NCBI RefSeq assembly: GCF_036227485.1 | Contig: NZ_CP109479.1 | Span: forward strand, 10,168,001-10,232,000 | Direction of reading: 5' to 3' | Origin: Streptomyces sp. NBC_01451 | GTDB taxonomy: Bacteria > Actinomycetota > Actinomycetes > Streptomycetales > Streptomycetaceae | DNA length: 64,000 bases | Shown here: positions 49,235 through 62,592 of the stretch, one piece after another | Layout: every line of letters starts with the position of its first letter | How positions within the stretch are numbered: the first letter of the stretch is position 1 | Translations under genes and position numbers: made by a program | The notes under the pieces: model-generated | Databases searched by the model: none | What the model saw: the letters and a program-made list of their open reading frames with translations, nothing else | What the model was told of the DNA's origin: nothing

Positions 49235-49382
49235 TCCTGTGGCACGTGTGGTTCTTCTCTTTCCGTGGGACTCCGGTCCGGCGACAGCGGGCCGGTTTGA
49301 GGCCTTCCTGGGGACGGAGAGCCGGCCGCATACGCTAAACTTGATCTTGAGCTGGTCGCCGCAACTTAGGATGGCTGGTTGC

Positions 49383-49452
49383 GCGTTGGTGGTCCAAGGC
49401 AAGACGCCCCGCTTCCTGCGGGGAAATGCAGGTGCAAGGCCTGCCCGGCGCT
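49383..49452 (+). tRNA. tRNA-Gly(UCC)-like RNA, copy 1
   Basis: All four arms can be drawn. Acceptor GCGTTGG pairs with CCGGCGC (two G-U pairs). The D-arm is GTC/GAC with GG in the loop. The anticodon stem CCCCG/CGGGG has loop CTTCCTG, so the anticodon is TCC. There is a four-base variable loop, and the T-arm is GCAGG/CCTGC with loop TGCAAGG. G1-C72, C2-G71, G3-C70, U73 and C35-C36 are known bacterial tRNA-Gly identity elements. Odd points: T-loop TGCAA instead of TTCRA, U37 instead of a purine, a three-pair D stem, and CGA instead of CCA after the discriminator. It may be a special or decayed tRNA. A second copy lies at 61429. Confidence 0.6.
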
Positions 49453-49460
49453 CGATATAT

Positions 49461-49489
49461 GGGGCCCGTCCGTACACCGGACGGGCCCC
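49461..49489 (+). terminator. 12-bp hairpin after tRNA-like RNA, copy 1
   Basis: GGGGCCCGTCCG pairs perfectly with CGGACGGGCCCC around TACAC. In copy 2 the outer four pairs are A-T instead of G-C, so both strands changed together. Confidence 0.75.
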
Positions 49490-49580
49490 GTTCGTTGCCC
49501 GGCGGGAGAACCCGGGCGGCTGCGATTTCCCTGTTCCGGCGTGCGATGCGCTCGGGGGTGTGGCACCGTGGCGGTCAGTA

Positions 49581-49613
49581 CGGCCCGCCGTTTTCCCCCG
49601 AAACGGCGGGCCG
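49581..49613. terminator. 13-bp C-loop hairpin, copy 1
   Basis: CGGCCCGCCGTTT and AAACGGCGGGCCG pair perfectly with loop TCCCCCG. Related hairpins with a C-run loop occur at 59386-59418 and 61627-61659. They may be terminators or parts of one RNA. Confidence 0.65.
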
Positions 49614-50153
49614 TTCGCGTTCTGCAGGCCCGGCCAGGTGCCGCTCCGTCAGACGTTGCGTATCAGGACCGGCCGCGGGCGACGGACGGGCGGGGGTGGC
49701 CGGTAGCCGGGCAGGGAGGCGAGATGCTCGCAGACTCCGCCGTACTGGGGAAACGCAACCCCCCAGCAGCGACCCGTTCCCGCTGACTGAAGAGGAGGAA
49801 GGAAGAGGACCGCGCACACAAAGAGCACGAGCGTTCCCTCCGCTCTCATACCCAGAGCCACGAGCCGGCCCGGCAGGCGAGTTGACGTGCAGACAGAGAC
49901 GCTGGTGAGGCTGGTCAGTGAGCTGGGTAGCGCCGTCATCGGTGCCGGAGAAGCCCTGCTGCTGGCTGTAACCGGCTGTCCGGGTACGCGGCGGAGGCCA
50001 ACCGCTTCGGCCGAGACTATGGCGTTGAGCACCGTCCCAGGACGATCGGCCACCAGGTAGTCCACATTCGGTCACCTGGCACGCGCAGACCCCGACCTCC
50101 ATGTGACTCACTTCACTTTTCGCGCGAGTGGTCTCCGCAGGCTCTAGGTAGGT
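49614..50153. other. Intergenic region
   Basis: About 540 bases. A small frame on each strand is present but without motifs or ribosome binding sites. No repeat or RNA structure stands out after the C-loop hairpin. Confidence 0.4.
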
Positions 50154-59525: not shown

Positions 59526-59766
59526 TCAGGCCGCCGGCGGCTGGCTGGAGGGGCCGGCCTGGTCGGAGGGCGGGTCCAGCTGCTGCTGGCGGCGGCGCTG
59601 CTCGTTGCGGTGGTCTTCGACGCGCTGGGTGAACTTCTTCAGCGCCTCGTCTTCCCCGTCGGGACCGAACTCGCTGTAGGGGCCGATGCCGAGGGTGACG
59701 GCGTTGGCCTCTTGCTCGATGGCGTCGGCGGTCTGCTGGAGGAAGTACTGCGGTTGAACTCGCAGT
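59526..59766 (-). pseudogene. Truncated copy of the DUF4231 gene C-terminus
   Basis: The minus strand encodes YFLQQTADAIEQEANAVTLG, then FTQRVEDHRNEQRRRQQQL, nearly the same as the C-terminal 80 residues of the intact gene at 61693. The N-terminal 220 residues are absent; the break at 59766 abuts the IS630 remnant. Confidence 0.8.
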
Positions 59767-61098: not shown

Positions 61099-61428
61099 CC
61101 GCTGCGTCGCGCACGCCTCGCTACTTGGACGCACTTCTCGGGAGCCGATGCCTACGCAGCCTGAATCGCGCTTGAGCGGTGACCGCGGGCCCGTGCAGCC
61201 ATCGAAGTGCCGGGTCCGATATGGGCTTCGCCGACAGCCTCTCGACGTCTCCACGTAAGGCGTCCGGACAGATCGCGGCGACCAGCAGGCACCGCGGCCC
61301 TGAACCCACGGCACGCGCCCTCTGCGATGAGGCGAACGAAGCCAACGGCGTTCTTGTGGGCAAAGCCCTGATCGTATCCGCTAGACTTGATCTTGAACTG
61401 GCCGCCGCAACTAAGGGCGGCTGGTTGC
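61099..61428. other. Intergenic region upstream of tRNA-like copy 2
   Basis: About 330 bases. From ~61379 it is nearly identical to the sequence before tRNA-like copy 1 (CTAGACTTGATCTTGAACTG versus CTAAACTTGATCTTGAGCTG). No -35/-10 pair with normal spacing is convincing. Confidence 0.45.
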
Positions 61429-61498
61429 GCGTTGGTGGTCCAAGGAAAGACGCCCCGCTTCCTGCGGGGAAATGCAGGTGCAAGGCCTGCCCGGCGCT
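61429..61498 (+). tRNA. tRNA-Gly(UCC)-like RNA, copy 2
   Basis: Same 70-base structure as copy 1, with one difference in the D-loop (CAAGGAAA instead of CAAGGCAA). Acceptor, anticodon and T arms are identical, including loop CTTCCTG and T-loop TGCAAGG. Conservation of every stem between copies 12 kb apart, while sequence outside changes, argues that the RNA is kept. Confidence 0.6.
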
Positions 61499-61503
61499 CG
61501 ATC

Positions 61504-61536
61504 AAAAGGCCCGTCCGCGCACAGGGCGGGCCTTTT
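61504..61536 (+). terminator. 13-bp hairpin after tRNA-like RNA, copy 2
   Basis: AAAAGGCCCGTCC pairs with GGGCGGGCCTTTT (one G-T pair) and ends in TTTT, a classic rho-independent terminator shape. The outer pairs are A-T where copy 1 has G-C. Confidence 0.8.
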
Positions 61537-61626
61537 GCGTTGCCCGGCGCCAAAACCCGGGCGGCCGCGATGTCACTGTTCCGGCGTGCACCGCGCCAAC
61601 GGGTGTGGCAACCGTGAGGGTCAGTC

Positions 61627-61659
61627 CGGCCCGCCGTTTTCCCCCGAAGCGGCGGGCCG
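61627..61659. terminator. C-loop hairpin, copy 2
   Basis: CGGCCCGCCG and CGGCGGGCCG form the stem, extended by three more pairs to the loop TCCCCCG. It corresponds to 49581-49613 and lies between the tRNA-like RNA and the convergent DUF4231 gene. Confidence 0.65.
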
Positions 61660-61692
61660 TTCGCGTTTCCCGGCTCGGGGGTGAGCCTGTCG

Positions 61693-62592
61693 TCAGGCTG
61701 GCGGTGACGCCCCCGCTGGTGGGGCTTGGTCGGCGGGCTGGTCCAGCTGCTGCTGTCGGCGGCGCTGCTCGTTGCGGTGGTCTTCGACGCGCTGGGTGAA
61801 CAGCTTCAGCGCCTGCTGCTCCTGGTTTGGGCCGAAGTCTTTGTAGGGGCCGATGCCGAGAGTGACGGCGTTGGCCTCTTCTTCGATGGCGTCGGCGGTC
61901 TGCAGCAGGAAGTAGCTGCGCTCGCGGTACTTGTAGTAGCCGGTGAAGGCGGCTGACAGCGTGACGGTGAAGCCGATGGCGACGATCGTGACGTTCTGCC
62001 AGGTCAGCTTGTTACCGGTGTCCAGGGCTGCAACGGTCGTCGTGGCTGCGGAGCCGATCATGATGAGGTTCTGCAGCGCGTTGTGGACGAGCCGGTACTT
62101 GCGGCTGTCTGCCCGGTGCTGCTCGATGACCCCGACAACATCCTCGCGGTAGAGGCTGCGCCGTTCCTTCAGCGTCGGGTAGTAGAGGGAGCTGAGGAAC
62201 CGCAGTTCCTCGCGCTTGGTGTCAACTGCGTTCATCAGGTCGGCCAGGCGTGGGCCCCGGCGCGGCACAGTCACGATTACGACTGCCACAGCGATCAGTA
62301 TGAGTGTGCCGCAGATGATGGCGATGCGGAGAAGCGTCGCGGGGGAGTCCCAGGCCAGGACGGCCCAGCCCAGACCTGTCAGCAGGGAGACACCGGCAAC
62401 GATCAGCGCCAGCAATCCGATCTGGACGGCCGTCGTGCGGCGGGCCAGTTCCCGATCCGCTTGCTTCACTTCGTGCCGGAGATCGCGCAGCTTGGACCTT
62501 TCCGTGGCTGCCACTCTCCGTTGTTCGGCGCTGAGGTACTCCTCAGCATCGTTCATGCGGCTGGACGCGTCGTCGTCAAGACTGCGGTCCAC
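61693..62592 (-). CDS. DUF4231/SLATT-like membrane protein
   Basis: From GTG 62592 (AGGGGG upstream) the 299-residue protein has two pairs of membrane helices: TAVQIGLLALIVAGVSLLTG and LLRIAIICGTLILIAVAVVI, then LIMIGSAATTTVAALD and VTIVAIGFTVTLSAAFTGYY. The phrase YKYRERSYFLLQTADAIEEE and GIGPYKDF is typical of DUF4231. SLATT/DUF4231 proteins are predicted pore-forming effectors of bacterial conflict systems. No nucleotidyltransferase partner is adjacent; the neighbours are a tRNA-like RNA and tap. A truncated copy of its C-terminus lies at 59.5 kb. Confidence 0.75.
   Translation of the reverse strand: MDRSLDDDASSRMNDAEEYLSAEQRRVAATERSKLRDLRHEVKQADRELARRTTAVQIGLLALIVAGVSLLTGLGWAVLAWDSPATLLRIAIICGTLILIAVAVVIVTVPRRGPRLADLMNAVDTKREELRFLSSLYYPTLKERRSLYREDVVGVIEQHRADSRKYRLVHNALQNLIMIGSAATTTVAALDTGNKLTWQNVTIVAIGFTVTLSAAFTGYYKYRERSYFLLQTADAIEEEANAVTLGIGPYKDFGPNQEQQALKLFTQRVEDHRNEQRRRQQQLDQPADQAPPAGASPPA

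Follow-up and report, generated by a model that had tools for sequence, protein, structure and literature searches.

Two tRNA-Gly(UCC)-like genes lie in the analyzed stretch of the Streptomyces sp. NBC_01451 chromosome (64,000 nucleotides, termed the window; G000:C1:34651-98650, minus strand, of a single-contig genome of 10.27 Mb) and belong to a family of dispersed units. Comparison of the family members suggests that these units are probably stand-alone genes for a glycine-accepting, non-decoding tRNA that serves a non-ribosomal use. Unless a contig is given, positions refer to the window.

ARAGORN called a tRNA-Gly(tcc) at exactly 49383-49453 (copy 1) and 61429-61499 (copy 2), both on the plus strand, which bears out the duplicated Gly(UCC) cloverleaf reported in the preliminary description. 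The body of copy 1, which runs from G1 to U73 plus an encoded C74 and is also supported by RF00005 and covariation, differs by one base from that of copy 2. In the whole-genome search with RF00005, copy 1 scored 39.4 bits and copy 2 was not in the list; a window-wide scan at the gathering threshold listed nothing, and the other Rfam families matching at the copy 1 locus (two miRNA families and one sRNA) scored far under threshold. The anticodon UCC of copy 1 occupies positions 49414-49416 (plus strand; ARAGORN position 32 and loop counts) and is directly followed on its 3' side by U37 (49417, plus strand). The T-loop TGCAAGG (49433-49439, plus strand; unanchored T-loop count) has G53-U-G-C in place of G-T-Psi-C. 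U37 and this T-loop, together with the short D stem (3 bp), the pairs G1-C72, C2-G71, and G3-C70, and U73, had all been described earlier and are present in the window copies.

Copy 1 is preceded by a -10-like promoter element, TAAACT (49336-49341, plus strand; -47 relative to the tRNA), and by a 5' leader (49342-49382, plus strand) that is variable in alignment A1; it is followed by a terminator hairpin, GGGGCCCGTCCG/CGGACGGGCCCC (49461-49489, plus strand), identified from the sequence and the downstream MFE. The corresponding parts of copy 2, likewise on the plus strand, are TAGACT (61382-61387, from the sequence), a leader (61388-61428, alignment A1), and a terminator hairpin with A/T outer pairs (61504-61536, from the sequence and the downstream MFE). 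According to window self-comparison, a segment of 295 bases (49327-49621, plus strand), comprising the whole transcription unit and some downstream sequence, is duplicated with 86% identity at 61373-61667. Near copy 2, a stretch of about 198 bases is directly repeated with 88% identity (59556-59752 and 61723-61920). The terminators had been proposed to covary: with the hairpins aligned by eye, about two outer pairs are indeed compensated (G-C to A-T), but copy 2 has extra A-T pairs, and the downstream sequence is on average 37% identical over 63 copies, so that terminators have mostly been replaced rather than covarying. The 5' leader is presumably cut off by RNase P. Its consensus fold contains no predicted pairs, individual copies allow hairpins to be traced by eye, and an outer pairing GAGC/GCTC was given up because GAGC is not conserved. 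The genome contains six dispersed copies, i.e., four distinct ones and two mirrors, the window copies being mirrored at the opposite chromosome end, and also a canonical glycine set consisting of UCC, CCC, and three GCC tRNAs. A further weak tRNA match (L134, G000:C1:6393724-6393794; 31.9 bits, no ARAGORN call) may be a remnant whose 5' part is damaged.

The unit was compared in 63 copies, namely the two window copies and 61 copies from 60 hand-picked regions, which were taken from BLAST matches and lie well inside contigs. Mean ungapped pairwise identity was 0.977 for the 71-nt body, a value somewhat favored by recruitment of the set through similarity to a window copy, 0.446 for the last 45 bases of the leader, 0.373 just downstream, and 0.297 to 0.299 in distant flanks; some pairs of copies share flanks (upstream maximum, 1.00), so the copies are not all independent. 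Conservation and pairing of the body exceed chance, in view of the distance between the body and flank values and of the cloverleaf pairing given below. The motif TANNNT was present in the expected promoter window of 61 of the 63 copies, in 40 of them exactly at -47, compared with 6 of 315 control windows. Folding of the downstream 60 nt gave an energy below -30 kcal/mol in 60 copies versus 10 of 189 control windows.

Alignment A1 displays a canonical cloverleaf with a 7-bp acceptor stem and 5-bp anticodon and T stems; 99.9% of its 1260 cells are paired, and three pairs have changed on both sides. Among 500 shuffles of A1, the observed value was reached by none or one on four of five measures and by 28 on the fifth, although such statistics can be inflated by relatedness of the copies. 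Across the three sub-families described below, the acceptor, D, and T stems are paired in 99.5% of 615 cells. Here, two measures were not above the 500 shuffles (reached by 264 and 85), and the other three were above all of them (0). Slid controls paired in 31 to 45% of cells across sub-families and in 39 to 47% for A1.

Glycine identity was assessed with a script that fixed the letters of the D arm and T-loop and imposed none on the acceptor ends, discriminator, or anticodon loop. It returned 64 distinct bodies, of which 63 are consistent with a cloverleaf and one has a broken acceptor strand. GCG/CGC ends, U73, C74, and an anticodon loop containing CC are common to all 63, and the identity set G1-C72, C2-G71, C35, C36, and U73 is kept without exception. 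This is the set given for bacterial tRNA-Gly in passages of PMC9976931, to which Thermus adds C50-G64 and G10. Among the dispersed bodies, 55 have C-G and 8 have U-G as pair 50-64, pair 49-65 is G-C in 61 of 63, and pair 51-63 is A-U in 60 of 63; the canonical glycine tRNAs of this genome have TTCGA loops and, as read by eye, G51-C63 or C51-G63.

The anticodon arm departs from the canonical arrangement of a seven-nucleotide loop with U33 and a purine at position 37. The loop has seven nucleotides in 42 bodies and six in the other 21. Position 37, scored in the seven-nucleotide loops, is a pyrimidine in 41 of 42 (32 with U and 9 with C) and G in the last one, whereas U33 is kept in 41 (C in the remaining one). 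Because the pattern of the script had fixed the T-loop, this loop was counted separately and without an anchor in 116 of 117 BLAST-fetched loci (L210 omitted). The 37 distinct bodies obtained in this way read TGCAAGG (34), TGCAAGA (2), and TGCGAGC (1); T54-Psi55-C56 is absent from all 37, the sequence being TGC[AG]AG with G at position 55. In the D-loop, the first G of G18-G19 is present in all 41 rows of alignment A2 and the second in at least 90%. When 26 genomes picked for weak hits were searched again, 23 gave matches, with L210 contributing a 22-base fragment only; the remaining matches fell into two diverged forms with loops such as CAGCCG or CAACCG versus CTCCAA, each with six nucleotides between five-pair stems. 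The dispersed family comprises three sub-families whose anticodon arms differ from one another and from that of canonical tRNA. Two single forms were noted in addition: a 73-nt form with a longer D-loop (L187), which is beyond the length limits of the body count, and a body with the anti-Shine-Dalgarno-like anticodon loop CCTCCTG (L043:10054-10124).

The dispersed family has a counterpart on the core chromosome, a non-canonical tRNA-Gly(UCC) at G000:C1:4512198-4512269 (L106:99-170). ARAGORN did not call it in this genome and did call a relative of it in another genome. It is located 80 nt upstream of a tRNA-Gly(GCC) in this genome and about 73 to 80 nt upstream in the loci read. Hits at E 1e-10 or better were obtained in 198 of 199 genus genomes, those beyond the 22 loci read being assigned by similarity. 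AGTAG and GTGC[AG]AT were found in all 22 genus loci read, and eight loci from other genera are canonical. The core tRNA shares with the dispersed family the glycine identity ends, the UCC anticodon, the GUGC T-loop, and A51-U63; it differs in occupying a single conserved locus, in carrying A37 and, within the D-loop, A18, and in what looks like an additional T-arm base. In this genome, a query with the 181-base dispersed unit did not retrieve it.

Distribution was determined in genome samples drawn evenly from each group. By BLAST at E 0.001, matches to the 181-base unit, some of them weak, were obtained in 111 of the 199 genus genomes. With a covariance model derived from 41 distinct bodies, 109 genomes matched at E 1e-6, the E-values of this model being rough; since the two weakest (G025 and G166) proved to contain a tRNA-Gly(CCC) and core-type copies instead of the dispersed family, the number was lowered to 107. 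The loci concerned include an unusual tRNA-Gly(CCC) with a TTCGA loop (L375, G025:C1:4237950-4238022) and a second core-type tRNA-Gly(UCC) off the usual site (L376, G166:C77:103835-103907). A search for more copies had been proposed; with the family model, dispersed copies were located in 107 of the 199 genomes. The other 92 show no copy, and the dispersed RNA is therefore not essential to the genus. The 109 model-positive genomes hold 197 matches, with more than one match in 47 genomes and a maximum of 6 per genome. The tRNA body alone matched in 129 of 245 genomes of the order (one of 8 genera) and in 16 of 296 genomes of the class (one of 114 genera). Among Streptomycetaceae plasmids, 69 records matched at 135 places by BLAST, two of the records belonging to Streptantibioticus. 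The matching plasmid records and, among the matches listed, the named-genome records are nearly all from Streptomyces; S. lavendulae and S. griseofuscus are among the carriers listed, and outside this genus, a contig of Actinacidiphila acididurans among the listed named-genome matches fits the pattern. Relatives in other genera were rejected, as the weak model hits that were read proved to be three canonical tRNAs of other genera and one core form in Streptomyces. Two or three copies spaced 1.1 to 2.1 kb apart occur in S. mangrovisoli (L273), S. populi (L219), S. lavendulae (L234), S. himastatinicus (L255), and G094 (L064); no shared gene was noticed in L273, L234, and L255, whereas the copies in L219 and L064 enclose the same gene. 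In a literature search covering listings and passages retrieved by term, nothing was recognized as a dispersed tRNA-Gly element.

The neighborhood of the copies gave no indication of a partner. A telomere-linked or plasmid-specific role had been considered in view of the location of the window copies; neither role is supported, since copies elsewhere lie along entire chromosomes and have no common neighbor, and the telomere link is rejected despite the mirrors of the window copies at the other chromosome end. In 62 neighborhoods clustered by BLAST (60 fetched, of up to 20 kb, and the two window sites), the largest cluster covered 15 loci, which are scattered, and several clusters of 4 to 6 loci represent syntenic sites, so the copies are not all independent. 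A Pfam scan of 99 of the 111 nearest proteins (three window proteins and nine removed by hand, mostly from loci apparently syntenic with kept ones, were omitted) yielded 118 families, the commonest in 4 of the 99 proteins; toxin, integrase, and transposase families were not among the best 25 of the 118. A phage origin found no support either, with no hit among 50,697 phage records and none to the D-arm/T-arm pattern in viral contigs. The nuclease genes and tap placed beside the window copies in the earlier account were not seen among the 13 distinct ORFs scanned of 46 nearby, which is no proof of absence; the scanned neighbors include DUF742, TPR, and SLATT proteins.

A glycine carrier outside translation had been suggested from the two window copies, and the family adds comparative support through the glycine identity in all 63 bodies, the six-nucleotide loops in 21, A51-U63 in 60, and the pyrimidine at position 37. 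Each unit, with its own promoter and its own terminator, would be transcribed, trimmed to a tRNA, and provided with CCA. Glycyl-tRNA synthetase would then charge the product, to judge from the known identity elements that are kept (G1-C72, C2-G71, G3-C70, C35, C36, and U73). The G replacing Psi55, the weakness of pair A51-U63, and the changes in the anticodon loop may keep the Gly-tRNA off EF-Tu and the ribosome, which would leave it for a non-ribosomal glycine transferase. We infer a tRNA that is charged and used elsewhere because the charging signals are kept while Psi55 is lost, pair 51-63 is weak, position 37 is a pyrimidine, and some loops have six nucleotides. The absence of a common neighbor fits a trans-acting RNA. 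Candidate consumers are a Fem-type cell-wall enzyme in the first place and a glycine-using antibiotic pathway in the second; the synthesis of streptothricin-type antibiotics uses glycyl-tRNA. Passages of PMC4052509 name S. coelicolor among the organisms whose Fem-type transferases use aminoacyl-tRNA. FemAB matches were present in all 199 genus genomes, and a relation of Fem dosage to the dispersed RNA was rejected, the mean count being 3.65 in genomes with a model match versus 3.59 in those without (Mann-Whitney p 0.93; the 109 model-positive genomes include two later found to be non-carriers). As FemAB is universal but its number does not differ with the presence of the dispersed RNA, wall synthesis is a plausible use of the core tRNA and a conjectural one of the dispersed tRNA.

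Alternatively, the RNA might be a decoy or regulatory mimic which titrates a tRNA-targeting enzyme, e.g., a Gly-tRNA acetyltransferase or an anticodon-nuclease toxin, or whose UCC loop binds an mRNA or leader, charging being incidental. The accessory distribution (107 of 199 genomes), the presence on plasmids (69 records), and the extra copies would suit a dosage-dependent function of this kind; according to passages of PMC9976931, TacT acetylates glycine on tRNA-Gly via U73 and G71, both of which are kept in all 63 bodies, and a pseudo-tRNA of B. cereus, tRNA-Other, is assigned a regulatory role in passages of PMC3399842. We nevertheless regard this explanation as unlikely, as the anticodon arm differs among the three sub-families and from canonical tRNA, which would be strange for a decoy or antisense function of the anticodon loop, and no toxin family is among the best 25 of the 118 neighbor families.

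An auxiliary tRNA decoding GGA and GGG for the accessory genome, i.e., an ordinary tRNA with sequence drift, could explain why ARAGORN accepts the window copies, and the U33 kept in 41 of the 42 seven-nucleotide loops means that some decoding is possible for those bodies. This proposal appears quite improbable given the six-nucleotide loops in 21 of 63 bodies, the pyrimidine at position 37 in all but one of the other 42, the lack of T-Psi-C in 37 of 37, and the canonical tRNA-Gly(UCC) in this genome. Even less probable is a mobile or integration-site relic, either an att site or a cassette of tRNA origin that is copied from replicon to replicon, without a cellular role. The units are dispersed, multi-copy, plasmid-borne, and in the window part of a segmental duplication; one of 64 distinct bodies has a broken acceptor strand, and an IS5 transposase lies less than 4 kb from one plasmid copy. 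A relic is, however, difficult to reconcile with a body that is 97.7% identical between near-random flanks, compensatory pair changes, and a maintained promoter and terminators, and neither the best 25 of the 118 Pfam families (no integrase or transposase) nor the phage records and viral contigs (no hit) point to a mobile element.

Staphylococcal cell-wall tRNA-Gly species carry the anticodon UCC and have GUGC where GTPsiC is usual. The dispersed RNA appears to resemble this non-proteinogenic type in several tested respects. As in S. aureus and S. epidermidis, extra glycine tRNAs exist beside the proteinogenic ones, and passages of PMC2630981 and PMC6097841 describe a pyrimidine 37 and U73, respectively, for the staphylococcal species; U73 is stated in the latter to shield non-proteinogenic Gly-tRNA from D-aminoacyl-tRNA deacylase. 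In passages of PMC4052509, A51-U63, which is found in the dispersed family, is given as a weak pair for EF-Tu in the non-proteinogenic tRNA-Gly of S. aureus. In contrast to the S. aureus type, A49-U65 is absent here (G49-C65 in 61 of 63 bodies), and G18-G19 is kept rather than replaced by UU or CU, the core form having A18 (22 loci); because G18-G19 and G49-C65 are kept, we do not assign the dispersed RNA to the staphylococcal type. Two of the Streptomyces sub-families differ further in their six-nucleotide loops with partly GCC- or ACC-like anticodons, and the Streptomyces genes occur singly at dispersed sites, including plasmids, with matches confined to Streptomycetaceae in the samples. B. 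cereus tRNA-Other, as presented in passages of PMC3399842, is likewise a tRNA-like RNA outside translation, and its deletion led to a thinner wall and altered antibiotic resistance; it differs in having a Trp anticodon, being poorly charged, and residing within a longer RNA on an island.

Taken together with the core tRNA, the dispersed family may tentatively be seen as one tier of a two-tier non-translational glycine-carrier system that evolved independently in Streptomyces, with a near-universal core tRNA and a plasmid-borne, multi-copy dispersed family in which recognition by GlyRS is preserved and some branches have become non-decoding by loss of a base in the anticodon loop. If so, extra copies would raise the non-ribosomal supply of glycine for wall or antibiotic synthesis in a major antibiotic genus. 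In passages of PMC4052509, the way in which aminoacyl-tRNA is diverted from protein synthesis to wall-building enzymes is described as somewhat unclear for most cases; with a tRNA family that retains the signals for charging but not those for decoding, this diversion becomes directly testable by gene removal. For annotation, caution is advisable, as tRNA calls in Streptomyces can include genes that probably never decode.

Some neighbors of individual copies deserve mention. In the closest plasmid relative, a protein with DUF1524, a nuclease-type domain, is encoded upstream of the copy. In L372 (NZ_CP108691.1, 4921-12181), a plasmid copy has a DUF1524 protein on one side and, on the other, a DUF2397/DUF2398/SbcC-like operon, which we take to resemble a plasmid-defense (Wadjet-like) operon. 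In the window, copy 2 is adjoined by a gene for a SLATT-domain protein (NF033634, E 3.2e-20; 61693-62592, minus strand), a domain that accompanies defense-type effectors.
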